From: Nitrospirota bacterium
Lineage (GTDB): Bacteria; Nitrospirota; Thermodesulfovibrionia; Thermodesulfovibrionales; UBA6898
Direction of reading: 5' to 3'
DNA: 60,362 nt
Assembly (NCBI GenBank): GCA_004321925.1
Contig: SCQH01000024.1
Location: 1-60,362 of the forward strand
This document shows, in pieces, positions 30,024 to 43,031 of the stretch (within the stretch, counting starts at the first letter, position 1; every line of letters starts with the position of its first letter). The position numbers and the translations under genes are program-made. The notes beneath the pieces were generated by a model. It was given only the letters and a program-made list of their open reading frames with translations, searched no databases and had not been told where the DNA came from.

Positions 30024-31106
30024 ATGAACCAAATGATTGACATCGAAGGAGAGATCCTGGTCGTCGATGACGAACCGTCGATCCGGAGCTATCTCCTGTC
30101 CCTGCTGAAGAAGCGCGGTTTTTCGGTCATCACCTGCGACAGCGCACAGACGGCTATCGATCAGCTTGAGCAGATAACGACCATTGCGCTTGTCCTGACC
30201 GATATCAGGATGCCGGAGATGACCGGTATCGAGCTCCTTGCAGAGGTCAACCGGATCAATGCTGAAATACCGGTGATCCTGATGACCGGGTATGCCGACC
30301 TCGACGTTGCGATCGGGGCGGTCAATGCAGGGGCATTCGGGTTCCTCACCAAGCCGTTCAATCAACAATACCTGATGACGCTGATCAGCCGGGGCCTTGA
30401 GCGGAACCGCCTTATCCAGAGCGAAAAGAACTATCTGATGAGTCTCGAGAACGCGGTGATGCGGAAGACCCGTGAGCTTGAGGATACGGCGCAAATGGCC
30501 AACCGGCTGAGCATTGAGATCGTTCAGCGGCTTTCGGCTGTGGCTGAATCACGGGACAGCTATACGGCTGCCCATATTCAGAGGATCGGGCTGTATTCCC
30601 GCTGTATCGCCGAGGCCATGGATATGTATGCGGATTTCGTTGAAGGGGTGACCGTTGCCAGTTCGCTGCATGACATCGGAAAGATAGGGATCCCCGACAA
30701 TATATTGCTGAAAAAGAGCATGCTGGATGAAGCAGAGAGCAAGGTCATGCGCGAGCATACCGTGATCGGCCACCGGATCCTCTCCGGGTCCTCCCATCCG
30801 GCCATCCAGCTGGCAAGTTCCATAGCGCTCAGTCACCACGAGAGATGGGACGGGAACGGGTATCCCGCCGGGCTGAGGGGGAAGGATATTCCTGTTGAGG
30901 CTCGGATCGTTCAGCTTGCCGACCAGTATGATGCGCTGAGGAATGTCAGATCGTATAAGCCGTCCCTTGCCCATCAGGAGACCTACCGCATCATTACGCA
31001 GGGTGATGGACGGACCTCTCCCGCACATTTTGATCCGGAAGTGCTTGCCGCTTTTGTGGCTGTGGCCGACCGGTTCGACGAGATATTCAACACAACCCAG
31101 GACTGA
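30024..31106 (+). CDS. response regulator with HD-GYP domain
   Basis: 360 residues. Receiver (DDEPSIRSYL; acceptor Asp in LTDIRMPEMTG; KPF), coiled linker about 135-160, then HD-GYP with HDIGKIGIP, HHERWDGNGYP and LADQYDAL. All metal ligands and the GYP triplet are present, so cyclic di-GMP hydrolysis is expected. It is monocistronic, after tRNA-Leu and before the tpsB promoter. No cognate kinase is adjacent. It is the second HD-GYP regulator in the window. Confidence 0.92.
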   Translation: MNQMIDIEGEILVVDDEPSIRSYLLSLLKKRGFSVITCDSAQTAIDQLEQITTIALVLTDIRMPEMTGIELLAEVNRINAEIPVILMTGYADLDVAIGAVNAGAFGFLTKPFNQQYLMTLISRGLERNRLIQSEKNYLMSLENAVMRKTRELEDTAQMANRLSIEIVQRLSAVAESRDSYTAAHIQRIGLYSRCIAEAMDMYADFVEGVTVASSLHDIGKIGIPDNILLKKSMLDEAESKVMREHTVIGHRILSGSSHPAIQLASSIALSHHERWDGNGYPAGLRGKDIPVEARIVQLADQYDALRNVRSYKPSLAHQETYRIITQGDGRTSPAHFDPEVLAAFVAVADRFDEIFNTTQD

Positions 31107-31200: not shown

Positions 31201-32871
31201 ATGGGAAACTACTGCAGGTCAATACTCCTCCTCATTGCGCTTATCCTGCTGCATCCCGGCAGTATTGCTGCCGGGCAAGCAGGCGATGTTCCATCTCTAA
31301 CAGTCCCTGAGACCGGCCTTTCACCGGCGGTCCGGGGGGAGCAGGTTTCTGATGTCAGCGGTCCAGCGGATGATTTCATTATTGCACCTAAGGTCCGGGT
31401 CAGCGGCTTTGCCCTTGCCGGCAATACGGTGCTGTCGCAGGAGGAACTTTCAGCCGCAACCAGACCGTATATTGGCCGGGAGATATCCTTCGAGGAGCTT
31501 CAGGAACTCAGACAGAAGCTGACGACCCTTTATGTTGAGAAGGGCTACATCAACTCCGGCGTCCTCATCCCTGATCAGAAGGTCGAGGCCGGGATCGTCA
31601 GCCTGACGGCTGCTGAGGGACGCCTGAGCGGTCTGGTGGTCGAGGGAACAAAACGGTTAAGGCCCCGTTATATAACCAGCAGGCTTGAACCCTATCTGAC
31701 ACAGCCGATAAATGTCTTTGAGCTGCAGGAGGGCCTGCAGCTGCTTCAGCAGAACCCCCGTCTGCAGAAGATCAATGCGGTGCTCAGTCCCGGCATATCC
31801 CCCGGCGAGGCGGAACTGAAGGTGAAGGTCGAAGAGGAAAGGCCTTACCGGCTATGGATCTCGGCTGCCAATGATTATTCCCCGAGCATCGGCTCCTATG
31901 GCTCCGAGCTCGAATTCTCTCATAACGATCTGACCGGCTACGGGGATACCCTCTCTGCCACCCTAGGCCTCACGCTCGAAAATGCCCTGATAGACGGCGA
32001 CCTGAGCTATACGGTTCCTCTTTCCGGCCGTGATACTTTACTGAGATTTAATTACCGGGTGAATGAGACGACCGTGGTTGAGGAACCCTTTAAGAACCTC
32101 GACATACGGAGCAGGAACAGGACCTTCGGGGTGACCCTCAGCCATCCGTTTCACCGGACCGCCTATCATGAATTTTCGATGGGTGTCACCGGAGAGCTCC
32201 GGCAGAGCAGAACGTTTCTCCTGGGGAGGGCCTTTTCATTTACTGATGGTTCTGACGACGGCAGGTCACGTGAGACCGTCCTGAGGTTTTTCCAGGAATG
32301 GTCAAGCCGCAGCCAGCAGCAGGTGCTGGCCCTGAGATCGACCTTCAGCTTCGGGGTCGACGCGTTCCATGCCTCGCTTACTGAAACAGGCCCTGATCCC
32401 AAATTCCTTACGTGGCTTTCCCAGTTCCAATGGATACGAAGGCTTGGGGATAAGGGCATCCAGGCCCTGTTCAGGGCCGATATGCAGTTGTCGCGCGACC
32501 CGCTGCTTTCGATCGAGAAGTTCTCTGTCGGGGGGATGAACAGTGTCAGGGGGTACAGAAAAAATGCGCTTGTCCGGGATAACGGGATAGCAGCTTCAGT
32601 GGAGCTGAGGTTCCCCCTGGTCAATTCTGAAAAAAGAGGGGACATCCTTCAACTGATACCCTTTATGGATTATGGGAAGTCATGGAACACCCGCACACCG
32701 ACCCCGTCTCCCACAGATATCGGGAGCGCGGGGGTCGGATTTAAGTGGATGGCAACAGATGCGATCACTGTCCAGGCATATCTGGGCATTCCTCTGAAGC
32801 AGGTGCCGGTATCAGAAAAAGACCTCCAGGACAGAGGTCTTCATTTTAAGATCTCAGCGAGGCTGCTATGA
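31201..32871 (+). CDS. two-partner secretion outer-membrane transporter (TpsB, ShlB/FhaC type)
   Basis: 556 residues with a signal peptide (hydrophobic core ILLLIALILL). Two POTRA-type periplasmic domains (about 60-135 with VRVSGFALAGNT, and about 140-215 with GLVVEGTKRL) precede a C-terminal 16-strand beta-barrel (from about 220) containing the SVGGMNSVRGY motif of the Omp85/TpsB superfamily that contributes to loop L6. It would translocate the TpsA protein encoded in the next gene, with which it overlaps by 4 bases. ATG 31201 is spaced 8 bases from AGGG. Confidence 0.92.
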   Translation: MGNYCRSILLLIALILLHPGSIAAGQAGDVPSLTVPETGLSPAVRGEQVSDVSGPADDFIIAPKVRVSGFALAGNTVLSQEELSAATRPYIGREISFEELQELRQKLTTLYVEKGYINSGVLIPDQKVEAGIVSLTAAEGRLSGLVVEGTKRLRPRYITSRLEPYLTQPINVFELQEGLQLLQQNPRLQKINAVLSPGISPGEAELKVKVEEERPYRLWISAANDYSPSIGSYGSELEFSHNDLTGYGDTLSATLGLTLENALIDGDLSYTVPLSGRDTLLRFNYRVNETTVVEEPFKNLDIRSRNRTFGVTLSHPFHRTAYHEFSMGVTGELRQSRTFLLGRAFSFTDGSDDGRSRETVLRFFQEWSSRSQQQVLALRSTFSFGVDAFHASLTETGPDPKFLTWLSQFQWIRRLGDKGIQALFRADMQLSRDPLLSIEKFSVGGMNSVRGYRKNALVRDNGIAASVELRFPLVNSEKRGDILQLIPFMDYGKSWNTRTPTPSPTDIGSAGVGFKWMATDAITVQAYLGIPLKQVPVSEKDLQDRGLHFKISARLL

Positions 32872-35603
32872 AGACGGCAATACTATTTCTGATGCTTGTC
32901 TGTATGCCCTTCCTCTGCTGTCCTGCCGGTGCAGAGGTGGTCCTTGACGGCAGCATGGGCCGGTCCGGCCCTGTCAGCGGGCCGAACTTTCTGGTCTCCT
33001 CTGATATGGGGAGGCAGACCGGGGCCAACCTTTTTCACAGCTTTACCCGGTTCAATATCGGCAATACCGAGACAGCGACCTTTACCGGGCCTGAGAGCGT
33101 CAGGAATGTCATATCCCGGGTGACGGGCGGAAGTGTCTCGAATATCAACGGCCTGCTGCGGTCGACGATCCCGGGGGCTGATTTTTACTTTATCAATCCC
33201 GCAGGGGTATTTTTCGGCCAGGGGGCGGAACTCGATATCCATGGTTCATTTTATGTCAGTACTGCAGACTACCTGAGGCTCGGGACCGATGGCCGGTTCA
33301 ATGCAACAGATCCGGGGGAGAGCCTCCTGAGCACTGCCCCGCCTTCTGCCTTCGGTTTCCTGAGCCAGAACCCTGCGTCGATATTTGTCAATAACGCGAG
33401 GCTTGATGCCGCTGCCGGGAGAGATCTTTCTATCATAGGCGGGGACCTTGTCCTTGATAATGCCGTGCTCTTTGCGCCGGAGGGAAGGATAAACATCCTG
33501 AATGTCGCCTCTTCGGGAGAGATCCTGCCGGGTCAGCCTGACTGGAATGCCGGGTCGTTTTCGAGACTTGGCAGCAGCTTTGTGTATGGAGGATTTATCG
33601 TCACAAGCGGCGGGGAGGAGAGCGGCATATATATCAGGGGCGACGGTTTTTATGCGCGAGGTGCTGTCATAGAAGCCGGTACTGGTCTAGGTCCGGCAGG
33701 CGGCATGATCGACATCAAGCTGAACGATCTGTTGATCCTGGAAGGAGGCCTCCTCAGGACGATCACTGAAGGCGCAGGCCGGGGCGGCGAGTTAAAGCTG
33801 CGGGCACGCGGTCTGCTTCTTGCCGCGGGCGTATCAGCGGGGACAACCACCCTTGGAAGCGGAGACAGCGGAGATGTCATTATCAGTGTTGCCGAGAGGT
33901 TTGAAATATCAGGGACCGACCGGGATGGCTTCAGAAGCGCTCTCTTCAGTTTAGGCGGATCCGCCTCGACAGGGACGAGCGGGAAGATCTCGGTGTCTGC
34001 CCCTCTCCTTGACCTGGCGGACGGGGGGCTGATCACCACCAGCTCCGGATCAAGGGGACAGAGGGGTGACATCCATATCAGCGCCGACCATTTGACGCTC
34101 GCCACTAACAGCCGGATACAGGGCGGGAATATCCTCTTTGACGTCGGGACCCTCGAGATCAGCAGTGGTGCATTCATCTGGAGCCCTGCGCAGGGGCCTG
34201 ATGTCGGCCGCACGATCACGGTCAATGCACGGGAGTCCGTCCTGATCACCGGGGAGGGTCAGAATGAGGCGCCCTGGAAGAACAAGACAGAGCCGCTTTA
34301 TACCGGGATACACTCGGACGTATTTAGCAATGTAGACGGCAATGCCGGTGATATACATATTTCAAGCCCGCTGCTCAGGATAACAGACTCTGGCCAGATC
34401 GGCGCACGAACACATACCGACGGACACGGCGGAAATATCACTATCGATGCAGGAAAAGTGGAGCTGCTCTCCGGCGGACAGATCGCAGCAGACAGTTTCG
34501 GATCCTCCATCTTTGAAGGCCCGGCCGGTAATGTGACGATCAACGCCAGTGAGGAAGTCCTGATGTCAGGCAGTAATGGAGAGCTCTTCAGCGGCATTTC
34601 TTCGAGCACCCGGAGCGATGCGGACGCAGGCCGGATCTTTGTGAAGACCCCTCTGCTCCGGATGGAAGACCAAAGCAGTATCCTGGTGGCAACCGGGGTC
34701 TTCGGTGAAGGCAGAGCCGGGGACATCACGCTTGATGTCGGAAAGCTATCAATAGTATCAGGGGCCGCCATATCGAGCGCTTCAAGCGGACATGGGCAGG
34801 GAGGGTCGATCGATATAACCGCGTCCGGGTCTGTTGTGCTCGACAACGGAGTTATAACAAGTTTGGGGACCAGGTCAGGAGGGGCTGGAAATATCTCGAT
34901 AATAACCCCTTTACTGATATTAAAGGATGAAAGCGGGATCACAACACTTGCTTCGATACATTTAGCTACCGGAGAGCTCCCGGAGACCGATGCCGGAGAT
35001 ATAAGCATCAATGTCAACAACCTGGTTCTTTCCGAAGGATCGACGATTTCATCAGAGAGCCAGGGATATGGCAAGGCCGGATCAATTTCTATCATTGCCA
35101 GAGACAGAATAGAAAGTGCCAACAGTTCGATAACGACGGCTTCTTTTTTTTCAACAGGCGGCAATATCTCGGTCAGCAGCGGTGATGTAATTCTGACGCA
35201 GGGGAGTCACATTACTGCGACCGTGGGCGGCGGCAGTGGTAACGGCGGAAATGTCAGCATAAAGACAGATGCCCTGGCTGTGATCGAACAGAGCGACATC
35301 ACCGCAAAGGCGGACCAGGGTTTCGGCGGCAACATAACCATCCAGGCTCAGGCGGTGATCTTTTCGAATAACAGCGAGGCGAATGCCTCCTCGAATATCA
35401 GCGGCAAAGAAGGGACGGTCCGGGTCAATGCCCCTGATATCGACTTCAGCGGCTTCCTGGGTATCCTTCCCTCAAACTACCTGAATGCCGACCTGCTGCT
35501 TCCGAAGAGCTGCTCTGCACGGACAGGCGAACCGAACTCCTTTGTGATCGTCGGCCGGGATTCCCTGCCTCTCTCACCTGAGGGCTTTCTCCCCGCGCAG
35601 TAG
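32868..35603 (+). CDS. two-partner secretion exoprotein (TpsA, filamentous haemagglutinin-type)
   Basis: 911-residue exported protein. Signal peptide to about residue 22; TPS secretion domain (about 25-290) with RFNIGNTETATF and FINPAGVFFG, the haemagglutination-activity signature; then a long repeat-rich region of short beta turns (DISI, GNISI, GGNIT) expected to fold as a right-handed beta-helix. The C-terminus has a compact non-repetitive motif (LLPKSCS...FVIVGRDSLPLSPEGF) seen, to my knowledge, in many TpsA proteins of cyanobacterial type. Likely an adhesin or surface structural protein secreted by the upstream TpsB. Confidence 0.9.
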   Translation: MKTAILFLMLVCMPFLCCPAGAEVVLDGSMGRSGPVSGPNFLVSSDMGRQTGANLFHSFTRFNIGNTETATFTGPESVRNVISRVTGGSVSNINGLLRSTIPGADFYFINPAGVFFGQGAELDIHGSFYVSTADYLRLGTDGRFNATDPGESLLSTAPPSAFGFLSQNPASIFVNNARLDAAAGRDLSIIGGDLVLDNAVLFAPEGRINILNVASSGEILPGQPDWNAGSFSRLGSSFVYGGFIVTSGGEESGIYIRGDGFYARGAVIEAGTGLGPAGGMIDIKLNDLLILEGGLLRTITEGAGRGGELKLRARGLLLAAGVSAGTTTLGSGDSGDVIISVAERFEISGTDRDGFRSALFSLGGSASTGTSGKISVSAPLLDLADGGLITTSSGSRGQRGDIHISADHLTLATNSRIQGGNILFDVGTLEISSGAFIWSPAQGPDVGRTITVNARESVLITGEGQNEAPWKNKTEPLYTGIHSDVFSNVDGNAGDIHISSPLLRITDSGQIGARTHTDGHGGNITIDAGKVELLSGGQIAADSFGSSIFEGPAGNVTINASEEVLMSGSNGELFSGISSSTRSDADAGRIFVKTPLLRMEDQSSILVATGVFGEGRAGDITLDVGKLSIVSGAAISSASSGHGQGGSIDITASGSVVLDNGVITSLGTRSGGAGNISIITPLLILKDESGITTLASIHLATGELPETDAGDISINVNNLVLSEGSTISSESQGYGKAGSISIIARDRIESANSSITTASFFSTGGNISVSSGDVILTQGSHITATVGGGSGNGGNVSIKTDALAVIEQSDITAKADQGFGGNITIQAQAVIFSNNSEANASSNISGKEGTVRVNAPDIDFSGFLGILPSNYLNADLLLPKSCSARTGEPNSFVIVGRDSLPLSPEGFLPAQ

Positions 35604-35608
35604 TTCTG

Positions 35609-36340
35609 CTATTGTCTGTCGAAGGCCGCTGCAGCGGTGAGACCTGCCTGATCAAGCAGCCTGGCCCTTTCAGCACGGAGCCCCCTGTCTTCCTTCTGTT
35701 CGATGATCCGGGCTGAAAGGAGAGAAAGGGCGTCATACCAGATGCCTTCAGAGGCATAGACAGCCGCCTTTCCGAGTTCGCTTCCTGCTGAGCCGAGTTG
35801 TGAGATGAGCTGAGGCGATGGCATAACCCTTTTGATCATGCCGGTGCTGACGATGTCCCTGGACCGGTGCTCAGGGTCGACCACGATGGCAACGAACCAC
35901 TGATATTCGACGTCAGGCGTGAGCGAGACATCATAACCGGCAAGGCTCATGCACTGTATCCCGGGCTCCGTCGCCTCGGTGAACTCGCGCTCGAAGACAG
36001 GCCGGGGAGAGGCCTCGTCATTGATCGTTATCTCAAGCCGGGTCCTGGCCCTGTCAGAGAGGTACCAGCAGAGCGTCGGTTTTTCACGTGTGGTCAGCCC
36101 GACATGGTCCGGGGCCAGTGCAGCCAACACCGGGGTGTTGTACCCTGCGCCTCGTGTCCCGCCTCCGATCCTAAGAACGGGCCTGCCGATCGAGCCTGCT
36201 TTTGGCTTGTAGTTGACAAAAAAGCCGGAATCTTGCTTTTTCCCGTCCTTCTTTACAGCCGGTTCTTTGCCTGCGCCGCTGCTGTTAAGAGGGATGGCCA
36301 GCAGCAGGGCAAGTGTTACAGACAACGCAAATTTTTTCAT
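35609..36340 (-). CDS. exported DUF928-like protein
   Basis: 243 residues with a signal peptide (FALSVTLALLLAIPL). The core (RIGGGTRGAGY, PTLCWYLSDRARTRLEITINDE, YQWFVAIVVDPEHRSRD) resembles the DUF928 family, which is frequent beside CHAT, CHASE2 and haemagglutinin genes in cyanobacteria. Function unknown; the middle looks like an all-beta binding domain and the C-terminal 60 residues are helical. ATG 36340 follows GGAGGAG; an in-frame start at 36388 lies in the cyclase gene. Last gene of a three-gene minus-strand operon; it ends 5 bases from tpsA, tail to tail. Confidence 0.7.
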   Translation of the reverse strand: MKKFALSVTLALLLAIPLNSSGAGKEPAVKKDGKKQDSGFFVNYKPKAGSIGRPVLRIGGGTRGAGYNTPVLAALAPDHVGLTTREKPTLCWYLSDRARTRLEITINDEASPRPVFEREFTEATEPGIQCMSLAGYDVSLTPDVEYQWFVAIVVDPEHRSRDIVSTGMIKRVMPSPQLISQLGSAGSELGKAAVYASEGIWYDALSLLSARIIEQKEDRGLRAERARLLDQAGLTAAAAFDRQ

Positions 36341-36350
36341 AACTCCTCCG

Positions 36351-38309
36351 TTAAGTGGCAGTATTTTTATCCATGACCCCTGAGACACGGTAGACCATTA
36401 TTTTTTCATCCCTGCCCTTCACCTGGAACTCGCCGATCTCCGAGGTCATAAAAGCATTGCCCAGAAGTCTGCGGGTGGCCTCACTGATCAGGATCCGGCA
36501 GTGATCAGCTTCAGGGGAAGGGTCCCCGGGCTGCATCCGGAGACCCTCAAGCCGCGAGGCTATATTGACCGTATCTCCGATGACCGTGTACTCCATCCTT
36601 TCGGCGCCCCCGAGACTGCCTGCGACAAGAGAGCCTGTATGTATGCCGACACGCATACGGATGGTCGGCCTCTTCTCATTTTCCCATTCCCGGTTAAGGT
36701 CCGCAAGCTTATTTTTCATTTCCAGTGCACAGGCAACGGCATTGCGGGCGTCTGCGGTAATGGTCATGTCATCATCATGGGCGACCGGAACGCCGAAAAC
36801 GGCCATTATGGCATCACCGATGAATTTGTTGACGACCCCGTTATGTACCATGACCGTGCCGGTCATGGCATCCATATAGCGGTTCAGCCAGGTCATGAGT
36901 TCACCCGGTTCTGACCTTTCGGCGATGGCGGTGAAGCCGCTGATATCGGTGAACAGCACGGTTGCCGTGAGCTTCCGGGGTATGAGCCTGCCGTCATGTA
37001 TGAAGTTCTGCCTCTCCCTCCAGATCGTCTCGGCAACATCCTTTGAGACATGCCTCGAAAAAAGCTGCATGAGCAGGACCCGGTCATTCTTCTCCCGATA
37101 AGACAGGTAGGCCTTCACAAAGGAGAGAGTCAGGACCCAGGAGACCGCCGGGGGGATGACCGGTATCCACCAGCCCAGCATGAATGACCAGTAGGCAAGG
37201 CCGGTCAGCAAAGTAGTGCCGCCGGCAAGGAAGAGGCCGAAGGCCCAGTACGAACGTCCGCGGACCGCTGCCAGGCCCGCTGCCAGGCTCCAGAGGCATA
37301 TCCATGCCCATGCATATTGTTCATTCAGCGGGCGCAGGGACTTGTGGATGCCCTGTGCAGCCCTGATGATCTGTCCTGTGAGATGGCTATGGATCTCGAC
37401 CCCATGCAGGATGTTAACCCCGGCCTGCCTCCCGCTGACCGGTGCCGCATACATATCTTTCATGCTTTCCGCGGTTGAGCCGATCAGCACGACCCGGTCC
37501 TGAATCACCGCAGGATCGGCCTTTCCATCCAGGACATCTCCGAGGGTTAGTGTTGTAAACGGCCTTGATCTGAAATCAAGCAGGACCTGGTAGCCGCCCG
37601 CGTCGGCCCTCCGGTACCCACCATCATCCGCCCTGAACGGGACAAAGGTCGTTCCGCCCAAGCGCATATGTTCCGGGTTAAGCCGGTCAGGCTGAGGACC
37701 GATTCCTTCGGGCTGAAGATAGTTCAGGGCCAGCAGCAGACCAAAGGAACTGAGCAGTCCGTCCTGGCCATCCATGAAAAGCAGGCCGCGCCGAATGGAA
37801 CCGTCCCTGTCGACCGGCAGGTCATTGAAGCCGATCAGGCTGGGGTCCTTTATCATGTAAGGAGGGGGCACAGAGCCTGAACTCCGGTCGCCGATCTTCA
37901 TGACCGTCACAATGTGCGGATTCTTCGAGATCACGTCCCTAAGCTTGTCGCTTCCCGGCGGCACGGGGATGTCCCGGTAGAGGTCAAGGCCGATCGCCCG
38001 CGGCTTGTCTTTCAGTATCTGCCGGAGGAGGTCGGCAAGCAGGCTGTCCGTAAGCGGCCACTGGTTCAGTTTCTGAATATCAGCCTCGGTTATTGCCACA
38101 AGGGTTATTGGCGCTGCAGCGGCAGAGGACCGCACCTTCTGCCGAAGGAAATAGTCATAGGCTGACAGTTCCGGGGCCTGGAGATAGCCGCCGGCCCTTG
38201 CCAGGATGACCGCTGCAAAGATCAGCAGGCCGGTCACCAGACCGGCGAAGACCGGAGATCCGGTAAGGGACCTGAAAAGTTGACCAGGCGGACGGGCAGG
38301 ATCGCTCAT
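36351..38309 (-). CDS. CHASE2-domain class III adenylate/guanylate cyclase
   Basis: 652-residue membrane protein. TM1 about 20-38; extracytoplasmic CHASE2 sensor (about 40-325, with DLYRDIPVP and LIGFNDLPVDRDGSIRR); three TM helices (about 335-400); class III cyclase domain with both metal-binding Asp (LFTDISGFT and FIGDAIMAVFG), the Lys in VNKF and Thr in EYTVIGDT that specify the base, and Asn/Arg in VNIASRL. Catalytic set complete; the Lys/Thr pair favours ATP. Sits 3 bases after the CHAT gene and overlaps nothing important of the DUF928 gene. Confidence 0.92.
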   Translation of the reverse strand: MSDPARPPGQLFRSLTGSPVFAGLVTGLLIFAAVILARAGGYLQAPELSAYDYFLRQKVRSSAAAAPITLVAITEADIQKLNQWPLTDSLLADLLRQILKDKPRAIGLDLYRDIPVPPGSDKLRDVISKNPHIVTVMKIGDRSSGSVPPPYMIKDPSLIGFNDLPVDRDGSIRRGLLFMDGQDGLLSSFGLLLALNYLQPEGIGPQPDRLNPEHMRLGGTTFVPFRADDGGYRRADAGGYQVLLDFRSRPFTTLTLGDVLDGKADPAVIQDRVVLIGSTAESMKDMYAAPVSGRQAGVNILHGVEIHSHLTGQIIRAAQGIHKSLRPLNEQYAWAWICLWSLAAGLAAVRGRSYWAFGLFLAGGTTLLTGLAYWSFMLGWWIPVIPPAVSWVLTLSFVKAYLSYREKNDRVLLMQLFSRHVSKDVAETIWRERQNFIHDGRLIPRKLTATVLFTDISGFTAIAERSEPGELMTWLNRYMDAMTGTVMVHNGVVNKFIGDAIMAVFGVPVAHDDDMTITADARNAVACALEMKNKLADLNREWENEKRPTIRMRVGIHTGSLVAGSLGGAERMEYTVIGDTVNIASRLEGLRMQPGDPSPEADHCRILISEATRRLLGNAFMTSEIGEFQVKGRDEKIMVYRVSGVMDKNTAT

Positions 38310-38312
38310 GGA

Positions 38313-40613
38313 TCAGAGCCAGTTGCCGATCAGCAGAAAAGGGGCCCAGTAATAGGGATGACGGTAGGGTGAATCCTTCAGGATCTTCAACTGAGCATTC
38401 TGCAACGCCCGGGCCTTTGAGACGGCATGCTGCCGGAACTCGCGGTAGAACTCAACCACGAGCATTGAAGAGGCCTCGTCGCTGACGTACCAGAGCGTTG
38501 CCAAGGCACTCTTTGCCCCTGCCTTGACCGCAACACCGGCAAGGCCGAGCGCGGCCCTGTCATCTCCGCTTGCCGTCTGACAGGCGCTCAGTGTCAGGAT
38601 CTCCACAGGATTTGCACGGAACCGGCCGGACTTCATGGAGCGTTCAAGCTGGTCCATGGTGAGTCTCTCGTCCCATGACAGGAGGAACGACTCCCGTGAG
38701 TCGCCCGAAAACTCACCATGAGAGGCTATATGGACTATCTGAAACGGGCTGCCCTGAAGTTGATCCATAAACCCTGTTGAGAGAAAGGTCCTGTCCTTCA
38801 ACTCCCTTCCCTGGTAAAGCAGCCCGATGTCGGTGAGTTCCTGAGATACGCTGGCCAGGGGCGGATATCCCTGGACCGACTCGGTGAGCCCTGCTGTCAG
38901 AACCTCTATCGTTGCCGGATTAAAAGGCTTGGGGTCGGTGAGGGTAAGTCCCTGCGTGGTGGCCACGGCAAAGCTGCTGATAAGAAAATCTTTCCCATCG
39001 TGAAGGGCGGCAACCGGGATGGTCCTCAGCCATTTGTCAGGGATGATGACAATGGTCCCGATATTTTTTGCAGCAAGCTCAGGCCTGATCGGGGCGATCA
39101 GCCACTCATAAAGCCTCCGGCCGTGGACCATATATTCCCGGGTCGTGCGTTTTTCGAGGGTCCTTCTGAAGGCCTTCACCTCGCTCGTGAAGACATCCTT
39201 TCGGACGTCGACCGGATACCGCCTGATCTCTGACCTGATGCTGAGAAGCAGTTCGAGCCTGTCGGCAAGCGGAATGACATACAGGACAGCAGCTTCATCA
39301 GATATCTGCTCGAGGGTGAGCTGCTTTGAAAGGTAAGCGTCGACGCAGGGGTCCCTGAAATAGTCATAGAGTTCCGCGCCCTTCATGCTCTCGAGGACCT
39401 GGCGGGCCTCCCGGAGATACGCATCTGCCGACCCATGCTCTTCCGGCCGGCCTGCCTGCTCCAGGAGCAGGTCTGCCAGGCCAAAATAGACCGGCTCTAT
39501 TTTATCGCTGAAGAGTTCCTCCCCACAGGTAAAGCAGCCTGAGGAGAGCTCCCCCCTGATCGTCTCCAGGCTCCCGAGCGCCAACCTGTATGACGTTATT
39601 GCCTCCAGGGGCAGTCCCATTTTTTTCAGGATGCGGCCGGACTGCCACTGCCAGAGATACCGGGCCTCGTTCATGCCGATGCGCTCCGCCTCCATGACAG
39701 CCCGGCGCGTGACCTGTAGAGCGCGGCCATAGTCACCGGCCTGTTCATATAATTCACCAAGATATCCATATCCGTATGAAAGGGCACGGCTGTCGGCTAT
39801 CTCGCGGGCTGTTGCTACAGCATTGTTCAGGGCATCAAGGGCCGGCTTTCCGGGATCGGCAGGGAAGTCGGCTGACATGGCCTTTATCGTTTGTAAACCC
39901 CTGGCTATGCCGATGAGCAGAAAGGCCTTGTCATGGCTCGGGCTCAATCCCTGTGCAGAGGGATATGCCTTTAAAAGGAGGTCCCGGGAAACTGCATAAT
40001 TTTTCTGCATGATACGCATCCTGCTCATATTGAGGAGTGCATGGGCAGTCATGCCGTTGTCCCGTAAGCGGGTCGAGAGCTCCAGGGCCTCAGCATAGGC
40101 GGCATGGGCCTCATCGAATTTTTTCTCGAGCGCAGAAAGATTCCCCAGGTTGTTCAATATGGATGCCCTCAGTCTCCCTGCATCGTCGGTTTGAGGCAGC
40201 AGGGTAAGGGCCAGATCCAGATCTGTCCGGGCCTGGCCGGTCCGTCCGGCAGTGAGGTTCAGACTGCCGGAGAGATTCAGAACCTCAGCCCTGTCATCTG
40301 CTGCCCCGTACTGCTCTGAAAGTGCTCGGGCCCTGGTAAGGGCCTCTTCAGCTTTTTTCAGATGTCCAGCCTGCCCGGAGGCGCGGGCCAGGGTCGAGAG
40401 GGCCCTGATTCTTGTTTTCATATCACCCGAAGCCTGCGAGATCCTGTCAGCCTCTGACGCGGTCTTTATCGCCTGCTCAAGATCACCCCGGCCAAGATAC
40501 CCTTCAGCCCTCTCAAGATGTCTGCCGGCATCAGACGCAAAAACGGACGGGCAAAAAAGGATCATCATCACTATTATGAATAACCCCTGTGCGGTCCTGA
40601 CTGCTCGTTTCAT
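38313..40613 (-). CDS. secreted TPR-CHAT caspase-like protease
   Basis: 766 residues. Signal peptide (FIIVMMILFCPSVFA), then tetratricopeptide repeats over about 30-400, a linker, and a C-terminal CHAT domain (caspase HetF associated with TPRs) with the expected catalytic dyad His632 (IASHGEF) and Cys678 (LSACQTA), and the terminal PYYWAPFLLIG. Predicted extracytoplasmic cysteine peptidase. ATG 40613 starts the signal peptide; an in-frame start 237 bases upstream lies in the divergent promoter and PBP1A region and is rejected. First gene of the CHAT-cyclase-DUF928 operon. Confidence 0.9.
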   Translation of the reverse strand: MKRAVRTAQGLFIIVMMILFCPSVFASDAGRHLERAEGYLGRGDLEQAIKTASEADRISQASGDMKTRIRALSTLARASGQAGHLKKAEEALTRARALSEQYGAADDRAEVLNLSGSLNLTAGRTGQARTDLDLALTLLPQTDDAGRLRASILNNLGNLSALEKKFDEAHAAYAEALELSTRLRDNGMTAHALLNMSRMRIMQKNYAVSRDLLLKAYPSAQGLSPSHDKAFLLIGIARGLQTIKAMSADFPADPGKPALDALNNAVATAREIADSRALSYGYGYLGELYEQAGDYGRALQVTRRAVMEAERIGMNEARYLWQWQSGRILKKMGLPLEAITSYRLALGSLETIRGELSSGCFTCGEELFSDKIEPVYFGLADLLLEQAGRPEEHGSADAYLREARQVLESMKGAELYDYFRDPCVDAYLSKQLTLEQISDEAAVLYVIPLADRLELLLSIRSEIRRYPVDVRKDVFTSEVKAFRRTLEKRTTREYMVHGRRLYEWLIAPIRPELAAKNIGTIVIIPDKWLRTIPVAALHDGKDFLISSFAVATTQGLTLTDPKPFNPATIEVLTAGLTESVQGYPPLASVSQELTDIGLLYQGRELKDRTFLSTGFMDQLQGSPFQIVHIASHGEFSGDSRESFLLSWDERLTMDQLERSMKSGRFRANPVEILTLSACQTASGDDRAALGLAGVAVKAGAKSALATLWYVSDEASSMLVVEFYREFRQHAVSKARALQNAQLKILKDSPYRHPYYWAPFLLIGNWL

Positions 40614-40727: not shown

Positions 40728-43031
40728 ATGAAACTGAAGCTGATCATCATTTTTGCGCTTGTTGCCGTGGTTATGGGCGGGACAGCCGGCGGGTATTTTG
40801 CGATCTCCCGGGGGATGCCCTCGATCCAGGAACTCAAGGAATTCAACCACATTGTGGGGACGAAGATCTATGCCGACGATGACAACCTCATCGGAGAGCT
40901 CAAGGTCGAAAAGGGTATCTTCATCCCCCTGGAGAGCATGCCGAAGAACATGATCAATGCCCTTGTTGCGGTTGAGGACTCAAGGTTCTGGAAGCATAAG
41001 GGTATTGATTACATTGCCATTATGCGGGCCATTGTCAAGGACGTCATCCACGTCAGCCTCAAAGAGGGCGGGTCGACGCTCACCCAGCAGCTTGCAAAGG
41101 TCGTCTTTCTGAGCCCCGAAAAAACTATCAAGAGGAAGCTGATGGAAGCAGCGCTCGCCTTCAAGATAGAGAAGAGCCTGAGCAAAAATGAGATAATCGA
41201 ACTCTACCTCAACCGCGTATATTTCGGGCATGGCGCCTACGGGGTGGAGATGGCTGCAAAGGTCTATTTCGGGAAGTCCGTGAGGAACCTTACCCTTGGC
41301 GAGGCGGCCCTGATAGCAGGTCTTGTCAAGGCGCCGACGGTCTATTCGCCGTTCAATGATCTTTCAAAGGCCAAGGAGAGACAGGCTGTCGTCCTGATGC
41401 GCATGGAAGATGAGGGATACATAAAGAAGAGTGAACGGGAAGGGGCCTATGCCCAGCCGCTGTACCTGTCGAGCCTGAAAAAAGGGGTCGAGGTCCATAA
41501 TTATTTCATTGACTACATAAAGAAATATCTTGAGGAGAAATACGGGGAAGAAGCGGTGTACAAGGGGGGCATGAAGGTTTATACGACGCTCGACAGGACC
41601 ATGCAGTCCTCTGCCGTTATTGCCATGCAGGCCGGGCTCCGTGAGGTCGATAAGCGCAGGGGATGGCGCGGACCGGCAGACCGGAAAAAAGATGTTGACT
41701 TCAGTAAGGAGCTCAAGGGCAAAGAGCTCTCAACGACGGTGGCGATCAATCCCGGCGATATATACTCGGGGGTTGTCCTGAGCGTCTCGGACAAAGAGGC
41801 GGTCATAAAGACTCGCGGGGTTATCGGCAGGCTCCAGGTCAAAGATGCTGCGTGGGCCGCAAAGGTCCTCAACCCCAAAGACGGTTCTTCAAAGGTGCTC
41901 CAGAACTTTGGGCTGACGAAGGTCCTGACGCCCGGGGACATGGTGAAGGTCAGCATCAAGAGCATCCAGAACAGGAATGTCCAGCTGGCCCTCGAACAGG
42001 AGCCTGAGGTTGAAGGGGCCCTGGTTGCGGTCGAGCCTCACACCGGGTTTATCAGGGCCATGGTGGGAGGGTATGATTTTTCGAAGAGCGATTTCAACCG
42101 TGCGATCCATGCAAAGCGCCAGCCCGGGTCCTCTTTCAAGCCCGTGATCTATGCCGCTGCAATGGACCACGGTTTTACGCCGGCAAGCATCATCAATGAC
42201 GAGCCGGTCACCTATATGGGCGGGCCCAAGGGTGAGTGGAGCCCTGAAAACTACGACCATAAGTTCTATGGACCGACCCGGCTGCGCGAGGCGCTTGCCT
42301 TCTCGCGGAATGTCGTGACCGTCAAGCTCGTCGAGTCTGTCGGGATCGACAACCTGATAAATTTTGCGAGGACGGTCGGTTTCCAGGGCGACATGCCGAG
42401 GAACCTGAGCATTGCGCTTGGTTCTTTGAATATCACCCCCTTTGAACTTGCCATGGTCTATAATGTCTTTGCCAGCAACGGCAACAGGATCAAACCGGTG
42501 TCGATCAAGTATATCACTGACCGCAAGGGCAGGATCCTCGAGGCGAACGAACCTGAGTCAGAGCAGGCGATCAGTCCGCAGACCTCGTTCCTGATAACCT
42601 CGATGATGGAGGATGTCGTGAAATACGGCACCGGCTGGAGGGCAAAATCTCTGGGGGTCCCGGTCTCGGGAAAGACCGGCACGACGAACGATTACAAGGA
42701 TGCGTGGTTCGTCGGGTATACCTCAAACCTGGTCGCCAGCGTCTGGGTGGGCTTTGACAACTCCCGGCCGCTCGGTTCGATGGAGACCGGTGCGCGGGCA
42801 GCTTCCCCGATCTGGACCGCCTTTATGGGAAACGCGATACGGGGGCAGGCCGAACCTTTTACCCAGCCTGAAGGGATCGTTTCCTTTCCCGTTGATCCAA
42901 AGACCGGCCTGCTTTCACGGGATGATTCCGGGCTGAAGGAATATTTCAAGGAAGGCAGTCAACCGAAACAGTTTTCGCCGTCACGGTCAGTTTGGGAGAT
43001 CAAGGACCCCTCGCAGTTCAACTTCGATTAG
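40728..43031 (+). CDS. mrcA: penicillin-binding protein 1A (bifunctional glycosyltransferase/transpeptidase)
   Basis: 767 residues. N-terminal TM (about 5-25); GT51 glycosyltransferase with catalytic Glu in VAVEDSRFWKHKG and GGSTLTQQLAK; an OB-like insert; transpeptidase with Ser in GSSFKP (SxxK), SRN and KTGTT. It polymerises and cross-links peptidoglycan from lipid II at the outer face of the inner membrane. The ATG lies directly after a strong promoter without a ribosome-binding site; the next Met (residue 16) would cut into the membrane anchor. Confidence 0.96.
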   Translation: MKLKLIIIFALVAVVMGGTAGGYFAISRGMPSIQELKEFNHIVGTKIYADDDNLIGELKVEKGIFIPLESMPKNMINALVAVEDSRFWKHKGIDYIAIMRAIVKDVIHVSLKEGGSTLTQQLAKVVFLSPEKTIKRKLMEAALAFKIEKSLSKNEIIELYLNRVYFGHGAYGVEMAAKVYFGKSVRNLTLGEAALIAGLVKAPTVYSPFNDLSKAKERQAVVLMRMEDEGYIKKSEREGAYAQPLYLSSLKKGVEVHNYFIDYIKKYLEEKYGEEAVYKGGMKVYTTLDRTMQSSAVIAMQAGLREVDKRRGWRGPADRKKDVDFSKELKGKELSTTVAINPGDIYSGVVLSVSDKEAVIKTRGVIGRLQVKDAAWAAKVLNPKDGSSKVLQNFGLTKVLTPGDMVKVSIKSIQNRNVQLALEQEPEVEGALVAVEPHTGFIRAMVGGYDFSKSDFNRAIHAKRQPGSSFKPVIYAAAMDHGFTPASIINDEPVTYMGGPKGEWSPENYDHKFYGPTRLREALAFSRNVVTVKLVESVGIDNLINFARTVGFQGDMPRNLSIALGSLNITPFELAMVYNVFASNGNRIKPVSIKYITDRKGRILEANEPESEQAISPQTSFLITSMMEDVVKYGTGWRAKSLGVPVSGKTGTTNDYKDAWFVGYTSNLVASVWVGFDNSRPLGSMETGARAASPIWTAFMGNAIRGQAEPFTQPEGIVSFPVDPKTGLLSRDDSGLKEYFKEGSQPKQFSPSRSVWEIKDPSQFNFD

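Follow-up and report, generated by a model that had tools for sequence, protein, structure and literature searches.

A TpsA-CHAT-DUF928-CHASE2 gene cassette of Nitrospirota as a very probable surface-to-cytoplasm signalling unit

Why should an operon for a secreted surface protein run, almost stop to stop, into an operon that encodes a protease-like protein, a membrane receptor and a protein of an uncharacterised family? The question is raised by five adjacent genes in the open reading frame list of a Nitrospirota contig (the window, the whole stretch of 60,362 nucleotides that was analysed), where a TpsB-TpsA operon on the forward strand converges with a CHAT/CHASE2-cyclase/DUF928 operon on the reverse strand and 5 bases lie between the TpsA and DUF928 stops (Table 1). 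Several lines of evidence indicate that the five genes very probably form a functional unit. To the full proposal, a self-contained envelope-spanning module for signalling and processing, we assign a probability of about 0.5.

Table 1. Coordinates of the cassette, its domains and motifs, and the flanking genes
Feature	Positions	Strand	Remarks
Response regulator with HD-GYP-type domain	30024..31106	+	left flank, outside unit; Pfam
tpsB	31201-32871	+	ATG start; alternative TTG 31150
tpsA	32868-35603	+	911 aa product
TPS domain of TpsA	33012-33524
TpsA C-terminal conserved segment CSARTGEPNSFVIVGRDSLPLSPEGFLPAQ	35511..35600	+	consensus C-x(n)-SSF-x(2-3)-GRDxLP-x-P
DUF928 gene	35609-36340	-	ATG start; alternative GTG 36388; 243 aa product
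DUF928 linker motif IGRPVLRIGGGTRG	36149..36190	-	P54, R63 >90% conserved
CHASE2-cyclase gene	36351-38309	-	652 aa product
Cyclase domain	about 36390-36968		Pfam
CHASE2 domain	37275-38222		Pfam
TPR-CHAT gene	38313-40613	-	766 aa product
CHAT domain	38322-39122		Pfam
CHAT Cys678	38580-38582		catalytic dyad
CHAT His632	38718-38720		catalytic dyad
Penicillin-binding protein 1A (PBP1A)	40728..43031	+	right flank, outside unit; Pfam

Domains and folds of the five products

All cassette domains score far above the Pfam cut-off. TpsB combines POTRA_2 (PF08479, 5e-22) and ShlB (PF03865, 3e-29) domains of the outer-membrane transporter type, and TpsA carries an N-terminal TPS domain (PF05860, 9e-32 in Pfam; TIGR01901, 4e-19 in NCBIfam) that marks the sole TPS gene in a genome-wide profile search. 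The tpsA start overlaps the tpsB stop by 4 bases. A TPS domain beside an adjoining POTRA and ShlB transporter in an overlapping operon is the arrangement of two-partner secretion (type Vb; FhaB/FhaC, HMW1A/B, ShlA/ShlB), from which this locus differs in the genes for a CHAT protease, a DUF928 protein and a CHASE2 receptor that are linked to it, in the C-SSF-GRDxLP segment that ends TpsA, and in that some relatives of this TpsA bear TPR-CHAT as their own C-terminus.

The TPR-CHAT product (PF12770, 1.4e-52) is predicted to be a caspase-like cysteine protease of the separase/Csx29 type. Its dyad is conserved across aligned CHAT homologues (His 165/165, Cys 164/165), and the best PDB fold match of the model is Csx29 (7y84_C; Z 31.2, rmsd 5.3 over 563), with separase also aligning (5fby_A; Z 24.5, rmsd 3.2 over 309); by sequence, no CHAT domain was found in the PDB, the matches being to TPR only. 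A TPR superhelix joined to a caspase-like CHAT with His and Cys is shared with Craspase Csx29 and separase. Unlike Craspase, the CHAT protein here is probably exported, and there are no type III-E CRISPR genes among those identified: the scanned window genes include neither gRAMP/Cas7-11 nor another Cas gene, and the flanks are the HD-GYP-type regulator and PBP1A. A structural match to the whole TPR-CHAT model (Z 22.2, 547 residues aligned) also comes from the C-terminal region of DdvA (8rw5, 8rot), although that transmembrane anti-sigma factor is a single chain.

The receptor gene joins CHASE2 (4e-56) to a Guanylate_cyc domain (4e-29). In class III cyclases the roles of the metal-binding Asp, Lys/Thr, Asn and Arg residues are well established. 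Aligned to CyaB (PDB 3r5g, 5e-27), the domain retains both metal Asp, the adenine-selecting Lys and Thr, Asn and Arg, and judged by these residues the protein should be a membrane receptor that makes cAMP. An earlier sequence-only reading had described convergence within 5 bases, an intact set of cyclase residues, CHAT His632 and Cys678, and signal peptides on the CHAT and DUF928 proteins; the coordinates agree with the first, the CyaB alignment with the second, both dyad residues occupy exactly those positions, and the N-termini are Sec-like.

Linkage across genomes and movement as a unit

That the neighbourhood arose by chance in one genome is vanishingly improbable. The convergent operons mean that the cassette is not one transcript, which would suit such an account, but the survey excludes it. 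Among 39 Nitrospirota DUF928 loci picked regardless of their neighbours, CHAT lies within 10 kb in 33 and CHAT together with TPS in 32, against a chance expectation for CHAT of about 1% (1-6 CHAT genes per ~4 Mb genome); in 24/39 of these loci the CHAT and DUF928 genes are direct neighbours with the same orientation. TPS is found at 33 of the 45 CHAT-centred loci of at least 15 kb, and in 82/88 genomes with DUF928 versus 50/307 others, a count that, like all association statistics here, takes no account of phylogeny. One mis-centred region (L206) was excluded. Gene clustering is far above chance. Similar linkage occurs in cyanobacteria, Desulfonema, Marithrix, one proteobacterial MAG and one Lentisphaeria MAG, and single proteins that fuse TPS to CHAT are encoded at L024, L045, L071, L072, L243, L248 and L263. 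Co-occurrence outside this genome, which the sequence-only reading had left to a neighbourhood survey, is thus present in several phyla; its statement that CHASE2, CHAT, DUF928 and haemagglutinin genes combine in cyanobacteria holds, with the qualification that such linkage is not confined to them.

The cassette also behaves as one unit in position. In a congener (G184), short flanks place the HD-GYP-type regulator and PBP1A genes ~1.2 kb apart with the cassette absent between them, and the same five-gene cassette lies at another site, so that an identical gene order stands at two different chromosomal sites within one genus. This order argues against a distinctly improbable alternative, that TPS plus CHAT and DUF928 plus CHASE2 are two independent modules, often co-inherited as envelope islands with no direct functional chain. 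Each pair is indeed found alone: 12/59 cyanobacterial regions hold CHASE2 and DUF928 only, and CHAT with TPS occurs without nearby DUF928 at L026, L060, L165, L178, L179 and L189. The adjacency of CHAT and DUF928 without CHASE2 in most Nitrospirota loci, however, crosses the proposed division. Since relatives of the genes recur together in several phyla with differing receptor outputs, the TpsA-CHAT-DUF928-CHASE2 set very probably constitutes one surface-to-cytoplasm signalling unit, of which we found no description in the searchable literature.

The protease and its candidate substrates

The N-termini of the CHAT protein, MKRAVRTAQGLFIIVMMILFCPSVFA, and the DUF928 protein, MKKFALSVTLALLLAIPL, resemble Sec signals. 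By a crude rule, signals are called in 78/110 linked CHAT and 140/190 DUF928 proteins, against a background of 124/494 unlabelled ORFs (~25%) and 10/54 histidine kinases. These signals, and single chains of the form TPS-solenoid-TPR-CHAT, make unlikely the cytoplasmic location that would have counted against the sequence-only reading; an extracytoplasmic CHAT is highly likely on these features. The probable placement of caspase/separase-type proteases outside the cytoplasm, beside a secretion system, is one reason the locus matters. The LapG/LapD/LapA system works similarly, with a periplasmic cysteine protease that acts on a secreted adhesin and is tied to a cyclic-nucleotide membrane protein, although protease family, adhesin and receptor are all unrelated to those of the cassette. 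No LapG-type protease is found in the cassette, CHAT being its sole protease family.

What the protease acts on is less certain. Nitrospirota TpsAs carry the strict C-terminal motif in 31/33 cases when linked to CHAT and in 1/9 when unlinked, which marks this segment as a candidate CHAT recognition region; in TPS-CHAT fused proteins the count is uninformative because CHAT occupies the searched stretch. A fixed cleavage site is doubtful, since the motif Arg is not universal (GSGGLP, GNGGLP and GHGGLP are found in CHAT-linked TpsAs) and the sites cut by Craspase orthologues are not conserved (PMC11106740). That CHAT cleaves TpsA is put forward tentatively, at somewhat less than even odds.

By analogy with Craspase and Csx30, CHAT might instead cut DUF928 at its RxGGGTRG linker, and the freed FN3-TPR part would activate CHASE2. 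We consider this improbable. The linker is flexible, conserved and in several cyanobacterial homologues tandemly repeated, and the same-strand neighbourhood of the two genes in Nitrospirota would fit, but CHAT-TPS pairs exist without nearby DUF928, as listed above, and the linker motif is kept at loci without CHAT or TPS nearby, including a complete genome (G083) whose sole CHAT gene is distant and divergent. Because of this persistence the motif is not simply a CHAT site. An Arg-specific cut at a GR/GGGTRG site shared by TpsA and DUF928 was also considered; it is weakened by the loss of Arg from several CHAT-linked TpsAs, and further by the DUF928 motif without nearby CHAT and the lack of a fixed site in Craspase orthologues.

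DUF928, CHASE2 and exchanged receptor outputs

The DUF928 product (PF06051, 2.6e-35; 122 bits versus a cut-off of 26) is modelled (AF2, pLDDT 87.8) as a putative signal peptide, a flexible linker, an FN3/Ig-like domain and a five-helix TPR-like tail, with strands then helices over residues 72-242. Its closest PDB fold is MtxA (4z29; Z 10.6, rmsd 4.2 over 153; next <= 6.6), at 15-16% identity in the structure alignment. No sequence homologue in the PDB, 4z29 included, is matched by the DUF928 profile at E up to 10. According to the accessible part of its report (PMC4439547), MtxA of the magnetotactic Magnetospirillum is an exported protein of an Ig/FN3 domain then five TPR-like helices, and mtxA precedes a CHASE2-adenylyl cyclase gene, as DUF928 adjoins one here; that part mentions no TPS or CHAT partner, and sequence similarity to DUF928 is undetectable. 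In cyanobacterial regions with CHASE2, DUF928 lies <1 kb away in 35/37 and on the same strand in 30. A Nostoc punctiforme CHASE2-DUF928-WD40 cluster, described as specific to one species, has the same adjacency, with WD40 proteins in place of TPS/CHAT (PMC5587647). We judge it reasonably likely that DUF928 partners CHASE2, and by gene linkage DUF928, to which the sequence-only reading gave no role, is the apparent link between the TpsA-TpsB-CHAT core and the CHASE2 half.

CHASE2 itself is optional. It is absent at 24/33 CHAT-positive Nitrospirota loci, and a complete genome (G147) has a TPS-CHAT-DUF928 operon with a single, distant CHASE2, which indicates that the CHASE2 step can be omitted; in Nitrospirota the core consists of TpsA, TpsB, CHAT and DUF928. 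Among the loci its outputs comprise cyclase, histidine kinase, Ser/Thr kinase, GGDEF/EAL, AAA-like ATPase, caspase, TIR and cytosolic CHAT. The surface system of the sequence-only reading therefore survives as a functional unit in which TpsA is exported, CHAT probably so, and CHASE2 serves as the receptor, and gives way where CHASE2 and cAMP were made a constant part.

In the envelope-spanning module that we favour, TpsB would export TpsA, by family a beta-helix surface protein, and TPR-CHAT, exported to the periplasm as signal peptides and fusions suggest, would act there on the TpsA C-terminal region bearing the C...SSFxxxGRDxLP segment. DUF928, an MtxA-like FN3 and TPR protein, would be a periplasmic go-between that works with CHAT, since their genes are adjacent even where CHASE2 is absent, and would contact the inner-membrane receptor by docking on its CHASE2 domain in the periplasm. 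The output at this locus would be cAMP, a second messenger to which the secretion or processing state of the surface protein would thus be coupled. At other loci this front end would drive kinases, c-di-GMP enzymes, caspase, TIR, ATPase or cytosolic CHAT.

The replacement of the cyclase by TIR, caspase or cytosolic CHAT in relatives, the Csx29-like fold of TPR-CHAT, and a constant sensor with swappable effectors, which recalls conflict systems (PMC8195603), could also point to a conflict or programmed-cell-death module in which TpsA/CHAT would detect kin or an attacker at the cell surface and CHASE2 would trigger toxic or alarm outputs. This seems very unlikely, as the outputs are mostly ordinary signalling domains, with TIR and C14 seen once each behind CHASE2, and PADLOC gives no complete system, its matches limited to profiles for TPR, part of CHAT and class III cyclase. 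PycC (Pycsar) profiles match the cyclase domain only (7e-29), its residues look adenylyl-type, and the neighbours are not Pyc effectors.

A broader and rather unlikely reading makes DUF928/MtxA-CHASE2 a widespread but so far unrecognised bacterial receptor system, in which a single periplasmic ligand-receptor front end, fed by TpsA-CHAT, is combined with freely exchangeable cytosolic outputs; in some lineages it would be wired to cell-death effectors. If the module proposed here is correct, it would also point to a role for MtxA, which has lacked an explanation since the publication of its structure in 2015. The uncharacterised DUF928 family gains a predicted fold, a crystal-structure relative and two candidate partners, and the output behind the exposed front end varies over at least eight enzyme types, which should allow sensing to be separated from output experimentally. 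Under the DUF928/MtxA-CHASE2 reading, protease-gated surface receptors would have a counterpart in bacteria. Cyanobacterial genomes carry up to 20 copies of the DUF928 family.

Organization and mobility of the cassette

The five genes proposed from sequence alone, tpsB and tpsA facing DUF928, CHASE2-cyclase and TPR-CHAT genes, were recovered with all of their claimed residues by ORF calls, Pfam domains, the CHAT dyad and the cyclase alignment. The host genome (3.23 Mb, 120 contigs) is that of a Nitrospirota congener of Thermodesulfovibrio sp. SW.3.86; CHASE2 occurs in four of its proteins and CHAT in three, with a single TPS domain. Because tpsB and tpsA overlap by 4 bases and the opposing genes are separated by spacers of 3 bases (CHAT to cyclase) and 10 bases (cyclase to the DUF928 ATG), each convergent side looks like a single operon. 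A paralogue elsewhere in the genome joins a class III cyclase domain (residues 22-200) directly to CHAT (254-569), a further tie between cyclic-nucleotide signalling and CHAT.

Coordinates of features in the window and in surveyed loci
Feature	Locus	Position	Strand
Response-regulator gene with HD-GYP-type domain, left flank	window	30024-31106	
Cyclase to DUF928 ATG spacer	window	36341-36350	-
CHAT-cyclase spacer	window	38310-38312	-
CHAT Cys423	window	about 39345-39347	-
PBP1A gene, right flank	window	40728-43031	
Caspase cluster, Trichodesmium	L041	5871-15298	
Three-TIR CHASE2 protein, Symploca	L049	290-3547	
Second CHAT protein, Lentisphaeria	L060	884-3061	
Cyclase-CHAT paralogue, contig C119 of the window's genome	L084	658-3204	

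The two convergent operons probably belong together, and the best evidence is their different chromosomal site in a congener, G184. Its PBP1A orthologue is 83% identical to that of the window, with about 1.2 kb and one unrelated ORF between it and the point where the left-flank gene ends; the insertion site is therefore empty in G184. The congener's own cassette lies on another contig (L002/L119) in identical convergent order, and the cassette thus behaves as one mobile unit.

Co-occurrence across lineages

A neighbourhood survey, proposed in the sequence-only reading, found the co-occurrence beyond the window's genome, in Nitrospirota, cyanobacteria and other lineages. Domains were called with home-made HMMs seeded from the window, with a Pfam check on about 40 proteins; DUF928 loci were picked regardless of neighbours, in regions up to 20 kb, with the window and G184 excluded. 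DUF928 is present in 88 of 395 Nitrospirota genomes. The 39 regions sampled there held CHAT and TPS (24), CHASE2, CHAT and TPS (8), CHASE2 and CHAT (1) or none of these (6), as raw counts that ignore kinship; the chance expectation of CHAT in such a region is about 1%, given 1-6 CHAT genes per ~4 Mb genome. TPS occurs in 82/88 genomes with DUF928 versus 50/307 without (odds ratio 70, ignoring kinship in a sample rich in Nitrospira). Among 40 control TPS loci chosen away from DUF928, CHAT was found in 6 and DUF928 in none. Centring instead on homologues of the window CHAT, TPS was present in 33 of the 45 contigs that span 15 kb or more. Four Nitrospirota loci (L165, L178, L179, L189) carry TpsA-TpsB and CHAT without DUF928, with the TpsA tail variant FVQGARDGVP. 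DUF928 genes at L122, L123 and L128 have no TPS, CHAT or CHASE2 nearby; the complete genome G083, with such a DUF928 gene, has a single distant CHAT and, at another site, a CHASE2 gene; in two sister genomes, DUF928-type CHASE2 proteins are encoded on different contigs.

The sequence-only reading cites combinations of CHASE2, CHAT, DUF928 and haemagglutinin genes in cyanobacteria. DUF928 occurs in 48/146 cyanobacterial genomes, in up to 20 copies, and the neighbours in 59 regions, as raw counts, were CHASE2 (37), CHAT (21) and none (14). In Trichodesmium, TpsB-TpsA-CHAT faces DUF928 and a caspase C14-CHASE2 protein, which places the known caspase-CHASE2 protein inside this cluster. Elsewhere, CHAT adjoins DUF928 in Desulfonema (L201, L203), Marithrix (L026) has TpsB, CHAT and TpsA, a proteobacterial MAG (L045) has TpsB with a TPS-CHAT fusion, and a Lentisphaeria MAG has a TpsA-TpsB-CHAT operon. 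Beside the latter is a second CHAT protein with Thr replacing the catalytic Cys, a possible pseudo-protease partner.

CHAT, the TpsA tail and DUF928

We propose that TpsB exports TpsA, that a periplasmic CHAT would act on the C-terminal part of TpsA, and that DUF928 would couple the state of CHAT and TpsA to CHASE2, whose cyclase output would raise cAMP. TpsA export and the enzyme identities are suggested by family membership and conserved residues; we infer which substrate CHAT has, what binds and which way the signal runs.

The CHAT N-terminus is Sec-like, and a crude rule calls signals for 71% of the linked CHAT proteins and 74% of the DUF928 proteins; the corresponding figures are 25% for unlabelled ORFs and 19% for histidine kinases. 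As independent evidence, single chains with N-terminal TPS and C-terminal CHAT occur at seven loci (L024, L045, L071, L072, L243, L248, L263). In two of these (L024, L045) TPS and a solenoid lead into a degenerate form of the TpsA tail motif and then TPR and CHAT, exactly the order expected had tpsA fused with its neighbour. Since TPS-bearing proteins are exported, the fused CHAT must exit the cytoplasm or remain periplasmic, and signals and fusions together point to CHAT acting outside the cytoplasm. The predicted TPR-CHAT structure (pLDDT 89.8) matches the folds of Craspase Csx29 (Z 31.2) and of separase, the latter at Z 24.5 with rmsd 3.2 over 309 residues; DdvA, a transmembrane anti-sigma factor, is a further match (Z 22.2). 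Cys423 is a second nearly invariant Cys (FRDPC) of linked CHATs, in the TPR-to-CHAT linker.

CHAT-linked TpsAs end in a Cys followed by SSF-x(2-3)-GRDxLP-x-P (GRGGLPxxP in cyanobacteria), sometimes with a further tail of 70-100 residues ending near another Cys. By a crude motif rule, 31/33 Nitrospirota TpsAs with a CHAT link show the strict pattern, versus 1/9 without one; in another set, 26/45 CHAT-linked TpsAs show it. Degenerate versions also occur in some unlinked TpsAs, and this signal is therefore partly TpsA phylogeny; the segment is a candidate CHAT recognition region rather than a proven cleavage site.

The main rival is that CHAT cleaves DUF928, beside which a same-strand CHAT lies in 24/39 Nitrospirota regions; the DUF928 linker motif P..R.GGGTRG is retained with or without CHAT. 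Tandem repeats of P..R.GG[GA][TS]R at eight loci (L225, L229, L236, L237, L239, L243, L256, L261) are in keeping with a short binding motif. With CHASE2 within 1 kb of DUF928 in 35 of the 37 regions that have it in cyanobacteria, and CHAT adjoining in Nitrospirota, DUF928 would be the link between the two halves.

In the DUF928 model (pLDDT 87.8) a disordered linker leads to an FN3/Ig-like sandwich, followed by five TPR-like helices. One solved structure spans both of the folded parts and ranks above generic Ig/FN3 matches: the C-terminal domain of Magnetospirillum MtxA, at Z 10.6 with rmsd 4.2 over 153 (next match 6.6). The authors of the MtxA study describe an Ig-like domain, a five-helix TPR and a signal peptide, suggest that the protein may act in periplasmic signalling, and place a CHASE2-adenylyl cyclase gene after mtxA in the magnetotactic cluster (PMC4439547). 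MtxA and the modelled DUF928 appear to share both their build and a CHASE2-cyclase gene neighbour, and this pairing in an unrelated genome lends independent support to the DUF928-CHASE2 partnership.

The CHASE2 receptor and its outputs

Each part belongs to a known family; the conserved combination, MtxA link and output exchange appear undescribed in the 5.4 million papers searched, subscription papers and preprints aside. Within that coverage, the Nostoc CHASE2-DUF928-WD40 cluster (PMC5587647) was the sole mention of DUF928, and no paper joined 'CHAT domain' with 'two-partner secretion'. The Trichodesmium caspase-CHASE2 protein had been noted on its own (PMC3501461, PMC2853523), and EACC2/caspase proteins with CHASE2 have been named as conflict components (PMC8195603).

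Adenylyl cyclase is the output of the window CHASE2 and of most CHASE2 proteins beside DUF928, CHAT or TPS; others carry a Ser/Thr kinase or hybrid histidine kinase, GGDEF with or without EAL, or an AAA_35 ATPase. In Trichodesmium the output is caspase C14, and in Symploca three TIR domains. A tree built on the CHASE2 domain alone sets the DUF928-associated proteins apart, with support 0.98, from three paralogues in the same genome. Output types are mixed within it (for example, histidine kinase L007 with cyclase L011, and histidine kinase L227 with cyclase L207), which argues for repeated output exchange. Some Nitrospirota, including complete genome G147, have a TPS-CHAT-DUF928 operon and only distant CHASE2 proteins, so the receptor is an add-on. 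Eight cyanobacterial loci (L204, L209, L217, L219, L238, L245, L252, L262) have an N-terminal, presumably cytosolic CHAT on the CHASE2 protein, and some loci would therefore have CHAT on both sides of the inner membrane. The Symploca three-TIR protein lies beside a CHAT gene, and one of its TIR domains matches the Thoeris ThsB-like family.
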